A stretch of 49,244 bases of DNA from a virus. Below are positions 34,286 through 46,338 of this stretch, piece after piece (position 1 is the stretch's first letter; every line of letters starts with the position of its first letter). The notes beneath the pieces are model-generated. The model was given only the letters and a program-made list of their open reading frames with translations. It was not told where the DNA came from and did no database searches. Both the position numbers and the translations under genes were made by a program. The stretch spans positions 1 through 49,244 of IMG/VR virus record IMGVR_UViG_3300046171_000177. One strand, given 5' to 3'.

Positions 34286-36142
34286 TTAAATTACTTCACA
34301 GTTACCACCAGCGCAAGCAAGCTCGCCTGATAGGTCTGTGTTATCGTCCATCTCAATAACCTTCGTTAAATCAACGTCAGATAATACTTTGGACATTTTA
34401 GTAAATGTAGCTTCGTCAATGTCCTCAAACGGAGCTTGTGTGTATGTACCGCCGTTATATGGCAATACTGATAAACCATTGTAGTGTTCTCTGTTTTCCC
34501 ACATCCAATCACCAGCTTTATCCCACTCATCATCTTTCAATGATATAGTAGCTGATACGTTATGAGTGTTAGAACCAACACGGTGACCAGGCTTAACCCA
34601 CTCTGTAGCCACGCGCTTAACACGCTCAAGCGTATCAAACGGTGATTCAGTTCTTAATATTGATCCTTCAGGAGCTTTCTGAGGTACAGAAATTACAGCT
34701 GTATCGTGAGGTCTGAAGAACTCGTCTTCAATTAACTCAGGGTGATGTATTGAAAGATACGTATATATAGCTTCATTTTTCCCTACGCGCATTCTACGCA
34801 CATAATAGTCATTATGCCATGCGTGAATACCAGATGAAGTTCCTAATACCAGAGATGTCGTCCCTGCAGGTTTTACGGTTGTGCATCTAGCACTTTTGTT
34901 TATGCCTAAAAGCTTCGCTACTCTCGTGTTTTCTCTCTTTACGATACTTGCAGCGGCCTTCATATCCATTTGGAGCACAGCGGCACTCCCGATCCCTGTC
35001 ATTGACACACCTATAAGAGCGTCTTTCTCTGTTGTCTCTCTCCATATTTCCCTTAAATAATGAAAGTCAGTGTAGCTAGCTTGTAATGTACCGATAAACG
35101 CAGCAGCTTTAACTCTAGCTTCAAAGTCTTCTTGTGATTCAATATTAGATACGTTAACCTCACATAAGTTACAGAACTGAAACGGACGCAATGCTATTTC
35201 ACAACATGGATTAGTGCCCCAGTCTTTGTCGTTATTAAAATAAATACCAGGTTCACCAGCACCAGAAAGCTCAACACGTTTCCACAGATCCATAAAGAAC
35301 TCTTTAGTGATTTTGTGTCTCATTAAAACAGCAGAGTTATTAGCTCGTCCACGTTGTGGATCAGTCTCCCACCAATTCCCTGACTTGCAAGACACCATTT
35401 GATCATCTGTAGCACTGAATAAACTAATGAGAGCCGCACGGCGTATACCACCAGCCAAAACAGCATCAGCAATATGGCAAATAATGTCATGAACTTCAAG
35501 AGAAGTGAGTTGCGTTCCATCTTGTTTTTCATCTAATATACCTTGTATTTTAATTAAACACTCTTTTAAAGGCTGTGGGCCAGGTGCTTTACCACCAGAA
35601 GTTACAAGCCTTGCGCCTTTAGGTCTAATGTCTGTATAATCAAATTTTATCTTCGACGCACGCTTATCACCTAAGTAAGACTTTATCAATACTTTTACAG
35701 CATCAGACCAACCTTCAATACTATCACCAATAACAAAACGTCTACTGCGTTTGTCAAATGGTTTTATAATAGCTGGTAGTCTTTTAATATGATGCTGTTG
35801 AACTGAATACCCTACGCCACATCCAGACAACAATAAGAACATTATCTCATTAAAAGCATCAACGCTATCAGCTGGAAGATATGAGCAATTATATAGGCGA
35901 TTAGGAGATATTTCAACTGGTTTGCCGGCAAATTGTAACGATCGCATAGATGGTAATACTTTTTTGCTATAAACGAACTTATACGCTTCATTGATTTGTT
36001 CTTTTAACTGTGGATATTTTTTAATGTGCATTTGGACGTTACGGTCAATGAGTTCCTCCCAAGTCTCCCGGCGGTTAAGCTCGGGATTATACTTGGCGTA
36101 CTTCATGTGAACAGTAATATCCGATAGGATGTTGTTGTTCAT
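34286..36142 (-). CDS. nrdJ: Adenosylcobalamin-dependent ribonucleoside-triphosphate reductase (class II)
   Basis: Reduces ribonucleoside triphosphates to deoxyribonucleotides using B12, independent of oxygen. 618 residues. Visible motifs: VLPSMRSLQFAG, N85-C86 in YNCSYLP (one of the redox cysteines), SGCGVGYSVQ, the active-site stretch TNPCCEIALRPFQFCNLCEVN with C313 (thiyl radical position) and E315, the TTVKPAGTTS substrate loop, and the C-terminal redox pair C610/C615 in CAGGNC. It belongs with the Lactobacillus leichmannii RTPR type rather than the large class II enzymes. It stands in a nucleotide-metabolism group with ThyA-like and MazG-like genes. It implies that infected cells have B12 available. 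Confidence 0.95.
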   Translation of the reverse strand: MNNNILSDITVHMKYAKYNPELNRRETWEELIDRNVQMHIKKYPQLKEQINEAYKFVYSKKVLPSMRSLQFAGKPVEISPNRLYNCSYLPADSVDAFNEIMFLLLSGCGVGYSVQQHHIKRLPAIIKPFDKRSRRFVIGDSIEGWSDAVKVLIKSYLGDKRASKIKFDYTDIRPKGARLVTSGGKAPGPQPLKECLIKIQGILDEKQDGTQLTSLEVHDIICHIADAVLAGGIRRAALISLFSATDDQMVSCKSGNWWETDPQRGRANNSAVLMRHKITKEFFMDLWKRVELSGAGEPGIYFNNDKDWGTNPCCEIALRPFQFCNLCEVNVSNIESQEDFEARVKAAAFIGTLQASYTDFHYLREIWRETTEKDALIGVSMTGIGSAAVLQMDMKAAASIVKRENTRVAKLLGINKSARCTTVKPAGTTSLVLGTSSGIHAWHNDYYVRRMRVGKNEAIYTYLSIHHPELIEDEFFRPHDTAVISVPQKAPEGSILRTESPFDTLERVKRVATEWVKPGHRVGSNTHNVSATISLKDDEWDKAGDWMWENREHYNGLSVLPYNGGTYTQAPFEDIDEATFTKMSKVLSDVDLTKVIEMDDNTDLSGELACAGGNCEVI

Positions 36143-36145
36143 TGA

Positions 36146-36283
36146 TTAGTTTTTGTATATTGTTAAACATGCGTCTATAAAACCTACGTATATAACGTGG
36201 TTTGTTCTGAATTCTTCTTGGTATGTTCTAATACCAAATAATAGCCCCGGAAAAGTACCGAAACTTAATTCCCATTCTCTCAT
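36146..36283 (-). CDS. Small conserved hypothetical protein (45 aa)
   Basis: The reading starts at ATG 36283, overlapping the stop of the upstream endonuclease gene (ATGA), and ends just before the reductase start. The peptide MREWELSFGTFPGLLFGIRT continues YQEEFRTNHVIYVGFIDACLTIYKN. The W-E-x-S-F-G-x-F-P-G-x-L-F-G-x-R pattern is one I recognise from marine phage small proteins. Function unknown; no membrane segment long enough to call. Confidence 0.75.
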   Translation of the reverse strand: MREWELSFGTFPGLLFGIRTYQEEFRTNHVIYVGFIDACLTIYKN

Positions 36284-36729
36284 TTGTTTTGATTTTGGAT
36301 TAATTTAATAGTTTCGTCGCAGTCCTTTTGGTTCTGAGGTTTATATAAAGTTACATGAGGTAAATTCTCTTTTACGTACTTTTTAAACATTTTCCATCGC
36401 ATTGGAAAACTTTCGTTTGCACGGCCTTTACATTCAATAATGAAGTCTTTGCCAACGAAATCTGGAGTATATTTAACTGGTAGTATTTTTTTATTTCCTC
36501 TGTTCTTATATTCACCTTTACCGTTAGACTGCTTTTCATAAGCAGCTTGAGTAAACTCAAAGCCTTCTTGCACAACGTAGGTTTCACCTTCATATGCAGC
36601 TTTGATCTTTGCTTTTTTCAGAGCTAGATACATATATCGTTCTAGCCCTGAAGCAAAGTTAATACCGTCCTGTCGTACGCGTTTAGCTCTTACAGGACCA
36701 CGCTTTTTAGATCTCTTCTTCATCTTCAA
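36280..36729 (-). CDS. T7 endonuclease I-like Holliday-junction resolvase
   Basis: 149 residues, basic N-terminus (MKMKKRSKKRGPVRAKRVRQ). The PD-(D/E)XK core aligns with T7 endonuclease I: SGLE with E30, YTPD with D90, IIECKG with E99 and K101, corresponding to E20, D55, E65 and K67 of the T7 enzyme. It cleaves branched DNA (four-way junctions and mismatches) during replication, recombination and packaging. Compared with T7 there is an insertion of about 20 residues between the first Glu and the catalytic Asp (ending in KILPVK). It may start at M3 (36723); it overlaps the upstream MazG-like gene slightly. Confidence 0.85.
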   Translation of the reverse strand: MKMKKRSKKRGPVRAKRVRQDGINFASGLERYMYLALKKAKIKAAYEGETYVVQEGFEFTQAAYEKQSNGKGEYKNRGNKKILPVKYTPDFVGKDFIIECKGRANESFPMRWKMFKKYVKENLPHVTLYKPQNQKDCDETIKLIQNQNK

Positions 36730-36976
36730 ACTTTTTAATCAAAGCTTCTTCAGATAAGTCTCTAATCTCTTCACGTGCAGCTTGAATATACAGTATTGCA
36801 TCCATCAACTCTTCTTGTATGTCATTTAAATAACCTAAAAGATTTTTGTGACCTTCAGTTCTTTCGTCGTGTAGTGTTCTACCGTACTTTTGATAACCTA
36901 TATTAGAACGCTCAACAAACTTGTTTACAACGTTTCTAACCACAGGATCTCTAAATTTAATTGTTTGCTCTGTCAT
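36707..36976 (-). CDS. MazG-like nucleotide pyrophosphohydrolase (small, all-alpha)
   Basis: 89 residues from the ATG at 36976; a longer frame to 37039 would only read back into the upstream gene. Residues 21-70 (ERSNIGYQKYGRTLH ... GYLNDIQEELMDAILYIQ) carry the E-E-x-x-D arrangement (E55, E56, D59) of all-alpha NTP pyrophosphatases and resemble MazG-like phage proteins. The likely role is hydrolysis of unwanted (d)NTPs. The start overlaps the stop of the membrane protein gene upstream. Confidence 0.68.
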   Translation of the reverse strand: MTEQTIKFRDPVVRNVVNKFVERSNIGYQKYGRTLHDERTEGHKNLLGYLNDIQEELMDAILYIQAAREEIRDLSEEALIKKFEDEEEI

Positions 36977-37203
36977 TATGCTAATATTGTTAAAATATAA
37001 TAAAATAATACTGGTGCTATTGTAGCAAGCACATCCCATTTATCGAATACGCCGTAATCAAAATAGTCATAAACTTCTTTAGCTACACCAACTGCTAGCA
37101 CTAGCCATAGTGTTGTTAAAGCTGTTAACCCAAGTTCTGTAAATATAACCGCGAATATAATACCCGCGATAGCGTGTTTGTATTTGTCTTTTCCTATGTG
37201 CAT
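36976..37203 (-). CDS. Small membrane protein, two to three TM segments
   Basis: 75 residues: HIGKDKYKHAIAGIIFAVIF, then TLWLVLAVGVAKEVYDYFDY, then WDVLATIAPVLFYYILTIL. The D-K-x-K-H-x-x-A-G and A-K-E-x-Y-D motifs match a family of small phage/bacterial membrane proteins of unknown function (YfiM-like in appearance). It lies between two MazG-family genes with minimal spacing. It could alter the host envelope during infection; this is inference. Confidence 0.75.
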   Translation of the reverse strand: MHIGKDKYKHAIAGIIFAVIFTELGLTALTTLWLVLAVGVAKEVYDYFDYGVFDKWDVLATIAPVLFYYILTILA

Positions 37204-37205
37204 AA

Positions 37206-38135
37206 TTATCCTTTTTGTGTTAGATTAGCTCTACCGTAGCTAGTTATTGGTTGATCTTTTACAAACGTGCCGTTGATCATTTTGCCTGTACGCTTTGATA
37301 TAACATCGTAAGCTGATTGTATACACTCTTCAATTGGTACACCAATTAACTCAGCTAAGTTAGTTAATACAACTACAGCATCACCGATACCATCAACAAT
37401 TTCGTTTGTATCATCTTTTAACAAAGCTCTACCAATCTCTCCAGTCTCTTCCATTAACTTAATATACTGAGTCTTTGGATCGCCTTTGTCGTACAAGCCA
37501 CGCTCATCAGCCCACTCTCTAATACAGTCAAATATAGGTTTATGGCAGTCTTTACAGTTAACATCAGGTTTTTCAAACACTTTACCATTTACTCTTGCCA
37601 ACTCTCTTTCAGACGCTTGCTTGGAAACCTCTGCTTTATGAGTTGTTCCAACAGTGATGTTTCTGTGTGGATTGTGGTCATAATACTTAGCCATAGCTTT
37701 ATTATATATATAACATCTATCGTTACTGTACTGTGATGTTTTTACGTTAGCCATAATCCAATTTATAGTTGGTTGAGTTATAGTAAACTCACCGTGAGCA
37801 GTTTCCCACTGCATACCAAGCTCGTCCATTAGTTGACCTTTCAATTTATTTATAGGGCACGGAAAGGTAGTCGTTGCCTCTGTTACGTTGATCTTCATTT
37901 TATTAAATTCTTTAAAATCGTTAGTAAAAAGTTTTTCATAGAGTTTTTCGTCAACAGGATAACCATATTGAACTTGCATTTCACGTTCTAATGTAGAAAT
38001 GTAAGATATATCGTCAGACCAAGCAAGTATTTCATACTCGCCAGGTTCGTAACCTTGTTGTTCTTCAACCCTATATTTCAAGTTGTTTGTCACCCCTATT
38101 TTTTTACCTGGGATGTGGTATAGTGCATACTTCAT
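37206..38135 (-). CDS. GIY-YIG-like domain fused to MazG pyrophosphohydrolase
   Basis: 309 residues in three parts. Residues 1-75 (YALYHIPGKKIGVTNNLKYR ... LAWSDDISYISTLEREMQ) look like a degenerate GIY-YIG fold with the G-x-T-x-N-x6-R core but a weak catalytic set. Residues 90-190 are a linker/unknown domain ending in a Cys pair (NCKDC). Residues 205-295 are a MazG domain with KLMEETGEIGRALL (E229, E230, E233) and NEIVDGIGDAVVVLTNLA (E245, D248, D252). MazG enzymes remove NTPs or ppGpp and help phage nucleotide supply. The stop and start overlap neighbours by a few bases (ATGA with the ThyA-like gene). Confidence 0.82.
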   Translation of the reverse strand: MKYALYHIPGKKIGVTNNLKYRVEEQQGYEPGEYEILAWSDDISYISTLEREMQVQYGYPVDEKLYEKLFTNDFKEFNKMKINVTEATTTFPCPINKLKGQLMDELGMQWETAHGEFTITQPTINWIMANVKTSQYSNDRCYIYNKAMAKYYDHNPHRNITVGTTHKAEVSKQASERELARVNGKVFEKPDVNCKDCHKPIFDCIREWADERGLYDKGDPKTQYIKLMEETGEIGRALLKDDTNEIVDGIGDAVVVLTNLAELIGVPIEECIQSAYDVISKRTGKMINGTFVKDQPITSYGRANLTQKG

Positions 38136-38839
38136 ATATGAAATTTTCTAGTTTTATTTTCTGGTAATTTATCGTTGTACAAATGCAAGTTATGCGCAAA
38201 GTGATAGTATGTACCAACTGGCAAGCCAAGCTGATAGGCGACATACATTTGTAAATTTGAAAACTGATACTGATCGTTACAGAAACCATACCAGAGATCA
38301 TTAGAACGCATTACAACAGACATATTAAGCTTGTCATTCAATATTGTAAACTGTACAGCGTACGTGCACGGAGTGTCGAAAGTATATTTGTCCCACTCTT
38401 TAGCGTCATATATAGATATAGCTGCTTGCCTAGTTTCAGGATTGTCTTTTAGCATTTGTATAACAAGCTCTAGCTGATTGTTACGCTTCCACTGCCAACC
38501 GTAGTTAGAGTTTACATTACCGTCATCATCAGCCATGCGCTTCCATATAGCTGGTACTTTACCGTACAACTCGCCAAGCTTTTTTATGTTACGATCACCA
38601 GAGCAATACCATTGCCATTCGGCTTCAGCATATTCTGCAGACCAGTCACGTTTTACTTTACCGTTGTGTATAGCACTGTGTGCTGGAAACTTCATTTCAA
38701 AGCCTACGTTAAATAAAGCTTTAGTGCCTGCAAAATCTACGCCATCACGAACTATACGCCAGTATAGACTGTGAAAAGCATTGTCTGCTGTATCAAACGT
38801 GTTTGTTGTATTTGTCATAATAGTAATAATAATATTCAA
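38132..38839 (-). CDS. Thymidylate synthase-family enzyme, possibly dCMP hydroxymethylase
   Basis: 235 residues (228 if started at the second Met, 38818). Family signatures: SNYGWQW near 111-117, catalytic C158 in DTPCTYAVQF, R178-S179-N180-D181 (R-S-x-D motif), and HNLHLYNDKLP at the end. By hand alignment the residue matching Asn177 of E. coli ThyA is D189 (in GFCNDQ). In this family Asp at that site is known to favour dCMP over dUMP (T4 dCMP hydroxymethylase; engineered thymidylate synthase N-to-D). The protein may therefore modify cytosine rather than make dTMP. It lies beside MazG-family genes that could remove dCTP. Substrate assignment is inference. Confidence 0.8.
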   Translation of the reverse strand: MNIIITIMTNTTNTFDTADNAFHSLYWRIVRDGVDFAGTKALFNVGFEMKFPAHSAIHNGKVKRDWSAEYAEAEWQWYCSGDRNIKKLGELYGKVPAIWKRMADDDGNVNSNYGWQWKRNNQLELVIQMLKDNPETRQAAISIYDAKEWDKYTFDTPCTYAVQFTILNDKLNMSVVMRSNDLWYGFCNDQYQFSNLQMYVAYQLGLPVGTYYHFAHNLHLYNDKLPENKTRKFHI

Positions 38840-39056
38840 TTTGTTTTTCTAATACCTCTTGCTTTTCAAAACAAGGACCTACATTAGTTTTGCCTTTAAT
38901 AACTATTTCAATACCAAAATCATTTTTTGGTCCTGAATATTTATCGCAAGGCACTACACATACAGATATACCATTTTTGATACACCATGTAATAACTTCA
39001 GAATCTTTTTTTGTAAGAGGTCGAAACCCAGGTTTAAATGGTCTACGCTTAGCCAT
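38793..39056 (-). CDS. Hypothetical small protein
   Basis: 87 residues from ATG 39056, which overlaps the stop of the primase-helicase (TAATG). N-terminus KRRPFKPGFRPLTKKDSEVITWCIKNGI, then a beta-rich part (VCVVPCDKYSGPKNDFGIEIVIKG). A tyrosine run (YYYYYY) near the end comes from a simple ATA/ATA-rich DNA tract at 38819-38834. Three cysteines are present. Function unknown; co-transcribed with replication genes. Confidence 0.68.
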   Translation of the reverse strand: MAKRRPFKPGFRPLTKKDSEVITWCIKNGISVCVVPCDKYSGPKNDFGIEIVIKGKTNVGPCFEKQEVLEKQIEYYYYYYDKYNKHV

Positions 39057-40768
39057 TATTCCCAAGGCATTGCTTCTTCTTCAGCAATATCAGCAGCTAA
39101 AGGAAGAAAACTACCAGACCTGCGCTCCCACGTAAAATGGGCTTCAGCTCCGTTTTCACCAAGGTTTTGAAACTTAACTTTTAAAACTTTAGCTTTAACA
39201 GTTTTAGCTTCATAGTCTCTGTGAACTAAAAGACCATGATAACTAGCATCGTACCATTCACCACCACCCTTAATGTTATACATCGTTGGCTCTTCAATCT
39301 TGCCATCTTTGTCTTTGTACATTTTAGTAGGGTGAGCTACTACAATAACTAATACATCATACTTTTTTGCAAACACTTCTATCTTTTGTAAATACTCAAG
39401 CGTATAGCGGTTAACATCATCTGAGTTAGCGTTAACATCTCTAACCTTATTAAATGGATCGATAACAAGACATTTAATGCCTTTACGCTTTACAAGCTCA
39501 GCGCCTTTGCGCAATACAGCTTCAAGCGAATACTTGTCCATGTCAATAAAGAAAAAGTTATCGTTAACGTGATCAGCAACTTGATTCCACTTGTCACCAC
39601 CAATGTCGCCGGGCGATGGCATATCCATCCAAACCTTACGCATTAGCTTGTGGGCATGTAAGAACGTTGGTTGATTTTCAGGTGACGCGAACGCCGTTTT
39701 CCATCCATAATTTTTATTATAGCCTACGCACATTTGGTCAACAAAATCAGACTTACCAGAGCTAGGTATACCAGTAACAGTAATAAATTGGGACGTGTAT
39801 GTAGAAAAGATTTTATCGAAGTTATCGATACCAATCTGAAACCCTGGTTTAAAACCGTTTTTAACAAAGTCTTGTAATTCATCTTCTATATCTCTTAATG
39901 TAGACACGCCTTCAAGAGGCACGGGTCTAACGTTTTCAACTGCATGTCTGAGAGCAGACTTTCCATACTTAACTAAATAATCGTTTGCGTCTTTACAATC
40001 ATCGAAATCAATTAAATAGCAGACTTCAGCGCCAAGACGTCGTATAAACTCTTGTTTTAATGCTTGGCCAGGCTCATCAGCATCAACTGCTAATATAACC
40101 TTTTCTTTGTCTTCAAAATAATCGATGCAATTATCTAAATAATCGAGATTGTTTGAGTTCAACGTAGCACCGTTAGGTACTGATATAACGTTTTTAACTC
40201 CCGCTTCGTGCATTGCAAGCACGTCCATTTCACCTTCAACTATAACACAAGTATCATAACCGATAATACTATTGATATTGTAAAATATTTTCTCTGCACC
40301 CTTGTACAGTTTAAAGTTTTTACGACCATCTCTGTATTTAACGTTTATGAGTTGATCACCCATATAATAGTTAAACTGAATTGTATTCTCTGACTTACCT
40401 GTCTGTGGCATAAACTCTTGGCCTTCACCTACACTTAGGTCAGCCAAGGTTTGTTTTGTTATACCTCTTGCTTCAAACCACTCTTCAACCTTTGTGCTAG
40501 TAGGATTAAACTCAACCTGTGGTCGAGCATAAACTTTTTCACTAGCACCTTTACGTTGGTACGTATGTAGTTGAAAACTAGTATCACAGTTGTGACAGGT
40601 GCCGAGACCACGTTCCCAGTCATAAGAAGCGCATTTAGCTTTCTTATTTTCGGGTTTCCTATTGTGAGAGCACAAGGGGCAAACCCCCTGTGTCTTCCCA
40701 ACTTCTAGGTCATGCTGATTGAACATATCAATCGCAAATCCATTGATCTCTTTACTTTCTACGCTCAT
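39056..40768 (-). CDS. Bifunctional DNA primase-helicase (T7 gp4/DnaB type)
   Basis: 570 residues. Zinc-binding domain with C30-x2-C33 and C58-x2-C61; TOPRIM primase domain with E178 (VIVEGEMDVL) and D229/D231 (AVDADEPG); RecA-like helicase domain with Walker A GIPSSGKS (333-340), Walker B CLVIDPFN (D436) and VVAHPTK (H478). It lays RNA primers and unwinds the fork, as T7 gp4 does. It precedes the SSB-like, exonuclease and ERF genes in reverse order, forming the replication core. The start ATG follows the SSB stop after a few bases. No frameshift is present, in contrast to the large virion genes. Confidence 0.95.
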   Translation of the reverse strand: MSVESKEINGFAIDMFNQHDLEVGKTQGVCPLCSHNRKPENKKAKCASYDWERGLGTCHNCDTSFQLHTYQRKGASEKVYARPQVEFNPTSTKVEEWFEARGITKQTLADLSVGEGQEFMPQTGKSENTIQFNYYMGDQLINVKYRDGRKNFKLYKGAEKIFYNINSIIGYDTCVIVEGEMDVLAMHEAGVKNVISVPNGATLNSNNLDYLDNCIDYFEDKEKVILAVDADEPGQALKQEFIRRLGAEVCYLIDFDDCKDANDYLVKYGKSALRHAVENVRPVPLEGVSTLRDIEDELQDFVKNGFKPGFQIGIDNFDKIFSTYTSQFITVTGIPSSGKSDFVDQMCVGYNKNYGWKTAFASPENQPTFLHAHKLMRKVWMDMPSPGDIGGDKWNQVADHVNDNFFFIDMDKYSLEAVLRKGAELVKRKGIKCLVIDPFNKVRDVNANSDDVNRYTLEYLQKIEVFAKKYDVLVIVVAHPTKMYKDKDGKIEEPTMYNIKGGGEWYDASYHGLLVHRDYEAKTVKAKVLKVKFQNLGENGAEAHFTWERRSGSFLPLAADIAEEEAMPWE

Positions 40769-43898: not shown

Positions 43899-44060
43899 TT
43901 ATTCAGTATCTTTAGAGCCTTGTGTCACAGTTTTGTCTTCGACAAACCATTTTTTGCCACTATTAACCGTAAGATGTCCAATAATAATTCTTTTACTCTT
44001 GTCATTAGCAAATTTAATTTTATTAAATTGCTTGATACGTGTCTTCAGGTCGTTGCTCAT
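43899..44060 (-). CDS. Small hypothetical basic protein
   Basis: 53 residues from ATG 44060 (MSNDLKTRIKQFNKIKFAND); a longer frame to 44102 is possible but would overlap the upstream gene by 80 bases. It is Lys-rich and ends in an acidic tip. No motif recognised. Confidence 0.6.
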   Translation of the reverse strand: MSNDLKTRIKQFNKIKFANDKSKRIIIGHLTVNSGKKWFVEDKTVTQGSKDTE

Positions 44061-44517
44061 ATAATGTTTCGGTTTTAGGGTTTGCAATATGCTTTTTATC
44101 ATTTATGTAATAGTTCCAATAAGCCTGTATACTACATTCGTCTTTGTATTCGTCAGGCATACACTGTGGAGGCTGTTCAAAGCCTGTATAAACTAACTCA
44201 CCAGGCATTATGCTAAGTTTATCTTTACATTTTATATAAGATAAATGATCTTTACCATAACGTCTTTTGTATTCAGCTGATAAAGCTACAAAATGATGAT
44301 ATAGCCACTCGTAGTTATTAGCTGATCTTCTAGCCCATACGGTTGACGGATGATTTTTATGTGCTATTTTATACGGCACATCAGCAAATTCAGTATCAAT
44401 ACAGTGGTGTGCAGTACATAGCATTTGAGCGGACTCAAGTATCATCTTAACTATATGTTTGTTGTACTGGTATTGAGCGGCTTTTTGTGGGTCTCGGTGT
44501 AAATAAAATATATTCAT
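44023..44517 (-). CDS. Pyrimidine-dimer DNA glycosylase-like phage protein
   Basis: 164 residues with the family pattern YNKHIVKMILESAQMLCTAH, then HKNHPSTVWARRSANNYEWL, then MPDEYKD...AYWNYYINDKKHIA. This family is widespread in phages and is annotated as pyrimidine-dimer glycosylase-like (Pyr_excise). True T4 DenV activity is not established for it. A role in repair of UV damage suits a surface-ocean phage. Its start and the stop of the gene upstream overlap (ATGA). Confidence 0.72.
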   Translation of the reverse strand: MNIFYLHRDPQKAAQYQYNKHIVKMILESAQMLCTAHHCIDTEFADVPYKIAHKNHPSTVWARRSANNYEWLYHHFVALSAEYKRRYGKDHLSYIKCKDKLSIMPGELVYTGFEQPPQCMPDEYKDECSIQAYWNYYINDKKHIANPKTETLYEQRPEDTYQAI

Positions 44518-45732: not shown

Positions 45733-46338
45733 TTAGTGAAATATTAGTCCTACTTTATTTGTTTTGTTAAACCATTTTGTGGCCATTAAGTCAATATTAG
45801 AAGCGTCAGTATAACCAGCAGAAACAAGCTCGTTATGGCTATGAAATATTCTGGTGTGTCGATCTTTCTTTTCGTCTATTAAATGTTTTTGTTTGCCTGA
45901 ATCACTGAATATAATGTCGTAATTGTCAGGCAGGTTAGTATTTTTAAGCATTTGAACACAGTTAGTATAGCTATAAAAGCGTACGCGTGGGTTGTGTATA
46001 GCAACTTGCAACCATTTCTCTAAATAAATTTGTGAGTAATAGTCGCCGCTGTCATGCACCCTTACGTAATCAGGACGTTTTTTAGCTATTTCTTGGTTCA
46101 TAATATTAACAAAGTCATCTGTTTTAGTAAGTTGATAACGTTTTTCAAACGCTGGTTGAACGTTTGACCATATGTAAGCACCTTTTTTGGCATAACAAAA
46201 CTTGACGCACGCATCAGCAAACGGGCATGTCAACTTACCCGATGCTGATTTGTACGCCGGAATACCAAAATTAAATACTCGTAAGCCTAACGCTTTACTA
46301 GTTTTTTTCAACTTACTGTTTTGCGTTAGCAAATTCAT
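45733..46338 (-). CDS. Gp88-family protein with Cys cluster
   Basis: 201 residues. The N-terminal part has CPFADACVKFCYAKKGAY (C-x6-C-x3-C), followed by YVRVHDSGDYYSQIYLEKWL and RFYSYTNCVQML. This matches the phage Gp88-type family (a C-rich motif, then R-x-H-D-S-G-D). The Cys triplet could bind a metal or an Fe-S cluster, but the spacing is not the radical-SAM CX3CX2C motif. Function is not established. The start overlaps the stop of the upstream gene (ATGA). Confidence 0.75.
   Translation of the reverse strand: MNLLTQNSKLKKTSKALGLRVFNFGIPAYKSASGKLTCPFADACVKFCYAKKGAYIWSNVQPAFEKRYQLTKTDDFVNIMNQEIAKKRPDYVRVHDSGDYYSQIYLEKWLQVAIHNPRVRFYSYTNCVQMLKNTNLPDNYDIIFSDSGKQKHLIDEKKDRHTRIFHSHNELVSAGYTDASNIDLMATKWFNKTNKVGLIFH

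Follow-up and report, generated by a model that had tools for sequence, protein, structure and literature searches.

The window analysed here, a stretch of viral DNA of 49,244 nucleotides in full, carries on its minus strand a series of genes around a member of the thymidylate synthase (TS) superfamily. Their positions are listed in Table 1. The open reading frame of the TS-superfamily gene encodes 235 amino acids when read from its TTG codon, with Met8 (38818) as the likelier start. The protein matches Pfam PF00303 (E=8.9e-28) and phrog_160 (E=3.9e-43), both of which bear the name thymidylate synthase. Among its best sequence matches in the PDB are a bacterial ThyA (6auj, 3.8e-18), MilA (5jnh, 1.4e-17) and the T4 dCMP hydroxymethylase (1b49, 1.5e-17). 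Its stop codon overlaps the start of the next gene (ATGA), which encodes a C-terminal MazG domain and is referred to below as the partner gene.

Table 1 Features at and around the TS-superfamily gene of the window
Feature	Position	Strand	Basis or remark
TS-superfamily gene, predicted dCMP 5-hydroxymethylase	38132..38839	minus	PF00303, alignment with T4 dCMP hydroxymethylase, signature residues, model
Codon of Asp189, GAT	38273..38275 (read 38275-38273)	minus	corresponds to Asp179 of T4 and Asn177 of E. coli ThyA
Codon of Cys158, TGC	38366..38368	minus	catalytic nucleophile by homology to T4 Cys148
Partner gene: weakly GIY-YIG-like N-terminus, middle, C-terminal MazG; candidate dCTP pyrophosphatase	37206..38135	minus	overlaps the enzyme gene by ATGA
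Small conserved gene directly upstream of the enzyme	38793..39065	minus	upstream in 73/80 loci; delimits the slot on that side
DNA primase/helicase	39056..40768	minus	used for the slot-content tree
Small conserved operon gene with QEELMDA.LY block	36707..37039	minus	
DUF1064 / Holliday-junction-resolvase-like operon gene	36280..36729	minus	
Ribonucleotide reductase with B12-type insertion domain	34286..36142	minus	

Several other features of the window were recorded in passing. The QEELMDA.LY block of the small operon gene looks MazG-like by eye, and its product may be another all-alpha pyrophosphatase. The ribonucleotide reductase shares 65% identity with one of a Microcystis phage; the gene was seen in 29 of 80 loci and is missing from the operons of many relatives, some loci being too short to tell. 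A pyrimidine dimer DNA glycosylase domain (Pyr_excise) lies at 44023-44517 and a GP88 family protein at 45733-46338 (E=2e-38).

Active-site residues of the enzyme

The first-pass annotation had placed, by hand alignment, an aspartate at the site of E. coli ThyA Asn177, the residue that selects the pyrimidine. The alignments made here bear this out. With phmmer, residues 68-190 align to the T4 dCMP hydroxymethylase (1b49) without a gap from the MRSND motif to the ND motif, so that Asp189 falls on T4 Asp179, and in alignments with E. coli ThyA it stands opposite Asn177. T4 Asp179 is credited with dCMP recognition and N3 protonation in the study of the T4 enzyme (PMC6400193). The MetaGPA study names positions 177 and 147 as those that best separate the TS proteins of cytosine-modified from those of unmodified contigs, and links Asp177 TS genes with modified contigs (PMC8670742). 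The window enzyme departs from ThyA at both positions, with Asp189 for Asn177 and Thr159 for His147, and also has Asp155 for Leu143 and Ser111 for Pro.

To sample the family, we took the best 80 of 575 relatives from a scan of viral contigs with six search peptides; a rough k-mer filter leaves 66 of them. Asp189, Asp155, Cys158, Thr159, Ser111, Tyr113, Ser179, Asp181, His219 and Tyr221 are invariant in all of these best 80, and Glu74 is kept in 79, with a gap in the remaining one. Because one of the six peptides spans Asp189, a second set weighs more for that residue: among the TS-family ORFs fetched through the neighbouring MazG gene, Asp stands at this site in 76 of 77 and one has a gap. The PF00303 gene is single-copy in the records of 28 of 29 relatives, and on the 29th contig one and the same gene stands at either end. 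The annotation had proposed dCMP rather than dUMP as the substrate, a prediction for which Asp189, Thr159 and the conservation across the family give good support.

As for the product, the annotation had left both 5-hydroxymethyl-dCMP and 5-methyl-dCMP open. In the T4 study, Asp145 (three residues before the catalytic Cys), Ser94 and Tyr96 together form a mark of hydroxymethylation, and the missing ThyA tail is a major difference between the T4 enzyme and ThyA (PMC6400193). The equivalents of the three residues, Asp155, Ser111 and Tyr113, are present in the window enzyme and in 80/80 relatives, and alignment shows the ThyA C-terminal tail to be absent from the window enzyme. Because this mark is present, His147 is replaced by Thr and the tail is lacking, hydroxymethyl-dCMP is the predicted product and methyl-dCMP is disfavoured.

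Two neighbouring specificities were compared as well. MilA, the CMP 5-hydroxymethylase (5jnh), also has Asp at the cytosine site, but owes its preference for ribose to Ala176 and Lys133 (PMC5175136), whereas the window enzyme has Ser179 and Arg137, the deoxyribose type. In the dUMP 5-hydroxymethylase group (SPO1 gp29), Asn occupies the 177 site in 5/5 sequences, as against Asp in the window. Judged by its residues, the window enzyme is predicted to be a dCMP 5-hydroxymethylase.

Structural model and phylogeny

We searched for similar folds with an AlphaFold model of the enzyme, which has a mean pLDDT of 90.2 and values below 50 at residues 1-10. The best structural match was MilA (Z 24.7), and AfhB (9iqc) and the T4 dCMP hydroxymethylase scored Z 24.6 and 21.8, respectively. 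In a 37-row tree, from which the long row BF486P2_27 was left out, the window enzyme lies on the hydroxymethylase side, split from the ThyA side at 100/98, and is joined with T4-like and AfhB-like enzymes at 80/94. The deep branches of a smaller 28-row tree, including that between the window enzyme and T4 gp42, are without resolution.

AfhB is a dCMP hydroxylase (9iqc, 9iqu) to which RB69 ORF048 is nearly identical. According to a 2026 paper, Mosigvirus makes 5-hydroxy-dCMP by means of an enzyme homologous to the hydroxymethylase (PMC13390438). These enzymes share with ours the fold and the Asp at the cytosine site, but differ at seven residues of the active-site region. In a set drawn up for this work, three flavin-type sequences have in common Ala99, Thr111, Phe112, Glu155, Gln180, Asn181 and Phe221 (window numbering). 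The window enzyme has Trp, Ser, Asn, Asp, Asn, Asp and Tyr at these positions, like T4 gp42, and none of the seven flavin-type residues. The Glu58 column was left out for the RB69-type rows, which show Glu in one alignment and Phe in another. Our literature search, which covered few subscription journals and no bioRxiv preprints, returned no paper joining hydroxycytosine, flavin, thymidylate synthase and phage.

The partner gene

In 78 of 80 loci the enzyme gene has the partner gene downstream of it, and in 71 the two ORFs are at most 60 bases apart. At three loci with another gene context (L020, L022 and L023), only a MazG ORF of 112 residues follows the enzyme, 392 bases away. The MazG metal site, EExxE...ExxD (E229, E230, E233, D248 and D252), is invariant in 60/60 partner proteins. 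At E<=0.1, profile PF03819 matches all 60 and PF01503 matches 56; for PF03819 the window copy scores 21.6, just below the cut-off of 22. In a fold search that covered residues 187-288, PRA-PH and bacterial MazG proteins came out at Z ~10, DCTPP1 at 9.4 and mouse dCTPase at 8.8 (8.4-9.4 for the dCTPase matches together), where rows within 1 Z count as tied and the dCTPase matches speak for the fold only.

The N-terminus of the partner protein shows weak similarity to T5orf172 (27 of 60 proteins, best 5.2e-5), MUG113 (22 of 60) and GIY-YIG (1 of 60), with the window copy below the cut-off, and its residues Y6, R22 and E50 are invariant. We take T5orf172 and MUG113 to be members of the GIY-YIG clan. 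The whole protein has a conserved N-terminal stretch of 65 residues and a conserved middle (80-150) without a family match, fused to MazG.

Since many different NTPs are substrates of MazG domains, a specificity of the partner for dCTP is a prediction. The dCTPase of T4 supplies dCMP and removes dCTP, and by analogy the partner likely converts dCTP to dCMP. In the MetaGPA study, TS co-occurs with phosphoribosyl-ATP pyrophosphohydrolase (PF01503), and such co-occurrences are often specific to modified contigs (PMC8670742).

Two enzyme types in one operon slot

We also approached the operon from the side of the partner gene, taking the best 80 of 574 relatives, whose loci include 73 with at least 700 bases upstream. 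A TS-family gene stands upstream of the partner in 71 of these 73 loci, within 400 bases in 68. At the other two (L127 and L131) no such gene is found upstream, nor PF00303 anywhere in either record; here the slot is empty (L127 3241-4333, L131 3727-4813), and the MazG gene comes straight after the small upstream gene.

Six of the TS genes fetched in this way are of the full-length ThyA type, with Leu143, His147 and an intact C-terminal tail, but with Asp177 (E. coli numbering). We scanned for this type with peptides chosen outside position 177 and took the best 80 of 142 relatives (L197-L276), or 56 after a rough k-mer filter. All of these best 80 have Asp177, His147, Leu143, Trp80 and Arg166, as well as Ser in the Trp83 column, and in all 80 the partner MazG gene follows on the same strand. 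The first six loci are not additional, because their contigs recur among the 80. ThyA-type controls (E. coli, BSTP3, BenitoAntonio, phiLLS, BF344P1 and D6E) have Asn at 177 in 6/6. In the 37-row tree the Asp177 slot enzymes, together with the Bosavirus and RDJL2 enzymes, fall on the canonical ThyA side, apart from the hydroxymethylases (100/98).

According to the MetaGPA study, a canonical TS becomes a dCMP methylase when its Asn177 is replaced by Asp (PMC8670742), and for this reason the Asp177 ThyA-type slot enzymes are predicted to be natural dCMP methylases. That two separate Asp lineages occupy one slot argues for a dCMP-modifying position. The MazG neighbour stays the same with both enzyme types, and so does dCMP, their predicted substrate. 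To follow the content of the slot, we built a tree of the primase-helicase from 50 sequences that remained after length and similarity filters (28 with a hydroxymethylase, 21 with a ThyA-type enzyme and one with an empty slot). This tree needs seven changes of slot content (bootstrap 6-8), of which strongly supported branches force only two; hydroxymethylase and ThyA-type occupants seem to have been swapped repeatedly. The swap is not named among the papers listed by a literature search on phage dCMP methylases, which covered few subscription journals and no bioRxiv preprints.

Phage, host and other pathway genes

Among the matches listed for the terminase, the closest is the uncultured podovirus ctfjg026 (MW202828), at 65% identity, followed by Flavobacterium phages at 48%. 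Of 87 matching records, all but one carry the name of Flavobacterium, Cellulophaga, Tenacibaculum or Maribacter, so that a Bacteroidota host is likely. A scan of genome contigs found seven loci in MAGs labelled Flavobacteriaceae and Saprospiraceae, and also Aliivibrio, Halieaceae and Verrucomicrobiales; these may be phage contigs binned by chance.

Thirty records, which may be incomplete, were searched for further pathway genes. The first-pass annotation had proposed looking for a dNMP kinase nearby, and the T4 gp1 family (PF21448) had no match in any of the 30. Neither did ThyX or the PF00534 (GT1) glycosyltransferases that could further protect hydroxymethylcytosine, while a dCMP deaminase occurs in one. 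The window record itself may miss genes, because it has 49,244 bases against 61-72 kb for the relatives searched. No DNA polymerase is named among those ORFs of one relative (G003) that were scanned. The same relative encodes its own GroEL and GroES (L090 13988-15553 and 9836-10426).

Comparison with known systems

T4 gp42 (1b49, 6a9a) is matched by the window enzyme at Asp179, Asp145, Ser94, Tyr96, Cys148, Ser169 and Glu60, likewise lacks the ThyA tail and lies on the same side of the family tree. The two differ in that their identity is only ~25% in structural alignment, that T4 Val85 corresponds to Met102 and T4 Arg124 to Gln138, and that the T4-type kinase and GT1 glycosyltransferase were not found in the 30 records. 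The nearest relative in a named phage, WAX06796.1 of Bacteroides phage BF486P2, is annotated as a deoxycytidylate 5-hydroxymethyltransferase and is 48.5% identical over 86% of the query. It has the active-site letters of the window enzyme except for Arg in place of Gln138, but in 40.6 kb the phage shows no match to the partner gene, and it has a second, divergent paralogue nearby. Both TS-family paralogues of BF486P2 (L082 17129-17890 and 19962-20642) have Asp at the 177 site; the first is very divergent, and the usual Glu is missing from it in the alignment.

The ThyA-type slot enzymes of the relatives resemble the engineered N177D TS in having Asp177 within an otherwise complete ThyA framework, whereas the window enzyme is not of the ThyA type. 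An Asp-type TS gene is also present in Bosavirus, the genus of close kin of the 5-methylcytosine phage Xp12; we regard its enzyme as another lineage because it has Asn and Pro at E. coli positions 143 and 147 and the aligned tail is missing. AXL1, a relative of Xp12 in which all cytosine is 5-methylcytosine, has a TS (gp63) and a nucleotide pyrophosphohydrolase (gp64) numbered consecutively (PMC9206674). Shewanella phage Thanatos, too, combines modified cytosine with genes for a dCTP pyrophosphatase and a TS-type enzyme (PMC12838424).

Elemovirus, a group of Flavobacterium phages, and ctfjg026 (MW202828) share with our phages a related terminase and an annotated GroEL, and Elemovirus also annotated primase/helicase, Erf-like and exonuclease genes. 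A phmmer search of one record for each, over its first 50 kb, found no enzyme of the window's family; MW202828 differs further in an annotated FAD-dependent thymidylate synthase.

Discussion

We consider it probable that the window gene encodes a dCMP 5-hydroxymethylase, that its MazG partner feeds it dCMP, that hydroxymethyl-dCTP is incorporated into DNA and that the slot serves C5-modification of dCMP. By homology to T4 gp42, Cys158 would attack dCMP at C6, with Asp189 holding the cytosine and donating a proton to N3. The methylene of CH2-THF would then pass to C5, and a water positioned by Asp155 and Ser111/Tyr113 would capture the exocyclic methylene, yielding 5-hydroxymethyl-dCMP and THF. 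The MazG-domain protein encoded by the overlapping gene is probably a dCTP hydrolase that releases dCMP, an activity that would both remove the normal precursor and feed the enzyme. With no T4-type dNMP kinase found in the 30 records, a host kinase or an unrecognised one would be needed to raise hydroxymethyl-dCMP to hydroxymethyl-dCTP; much or all of the cytosine would be replaced, and the DNA may be protected from nucleases in this way. In related phages the Asp177 ThyA-type enzyme is predicted to make 5-methyl-dCMP, and because it fills the same slot, the constant job of the slot would be C5-modification of dCMP.

Other functions of the enzyme have to be weighed against hydroxymethylation. 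Its family names would make it an ordinary thymidylate synthase supplying dTMP, with which the lack of ThyX in 30 records and of a second PF00303 gene in 28 of 29 relatives would agree. This reading is hardly credible, however, given the hydroxymethylase marks, the absent tail and an invariant Asp where the six ThyA-type controls have Asn; dTMP synthesis was rejected on the residues (Asp, Thr and Asp at E. coli positions 177, 147 and 143, and no tail). A dCMP methylase that makes 5-methyl-dCMP, as predicted for its slot-mates, would suit the operon slot held in common with the ThyA-type Asp177 enzymes. It is nevertheless improbable, since Asp155 for Leu143, Ser111 for Pro, Thr for His147 and the lost tail are differences that the T4 study ties to hydroxymethylation or to the T4 enzyme (PMC6400193). 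The structural search would also allow a flavin-dependent dCMP 5-hydroxylase of the AfhB/RB69 type, producing 5-hydroxy-dCMP: AfhB is tied with MilA and above the T4 enzyme, and it has Asp at the key site as well (read through the nearly identical RB69 ORF048). But the seven residues common to the three flavin-type sequences all differ in the window enzyme, which matches T4 gp42 there; because it has none of these substitutions, we predict a hydroxymethylase and hold the flavin type to be very improbable.

The hydroxymethylase reading itself leaves room for different fates of its product and different roles of its partner. Hydroxymethyl-dCMP might be made but incorporated only in part, or serve pool control, so that virion cytosine stays largely unmodified; the records in which no T4-type dNMP kinase and no PF00534 glycosyltransferase were found would fit this. 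We think it unlikely, as a candidate dCTPase coupled to two predicted types of dCMP-modifying enzyme fits replacement of dCTP, and the MetaGPA study ties Asp177 TS genes to modified contigs (PMC8670742). There is a more substantial chance, though we lean the other way, that the MazG partner is a general nucleotide house-cleaning enzyme or an alarmone hydrolase, unrelated to the supply of substrate. PRA-PH and bacterial MazG score slightly above DCTPP1, within the range of a tie, and two records have the MazG gene without any PF00303 gene. Mammalian relatives, moreover, hydrolyse 5-methyl-dCTP (PMC10742078), an activity that would be counterproductive here. Against such a general role stands the coupling of the partner to two different enzymes, both with Asp at the dCMP site.

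By itself, the window enzyme that we predict to be a dCMP 5-hydroxymethylase is a further member of a known enzyme family; it is the slot with two enzyme types that is of interest. In T4, gp56 is the dCTPase and DenA a nuclease that cuts host DNA. A bolder reading, which we put forward as a long shot, is that the operon forms an exchangeable cassette for cytosine replacement. Its slot would hold either a hydroxymethylase or a natural Asp177 dCMP methylase, next to a fused dCTPase (MazG) and GIY-YIG nuclease that leaves the modified DNA of the phage intact and cleaves that of the host. Over evolution the phages would have changed their base modification several times, perhaps to evade defences directed at one of the two bases. 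If this were true, the functions of T4 gp42, gp56 and DenA would be held in two genes.

The slot appears to be nature's parallel to the classic experiment in which N177D was engineered, and its ThyA-type occupants are candidate natural dCMP methylases. It predicts that closely related phages of marine type differ in their DNA, with hydroxymethylcytosine in some and 5-methylcytosine in others. Such pairs of phages would offer a test of how defences aimed at a single modified base shape the chemistry of phage DNA.
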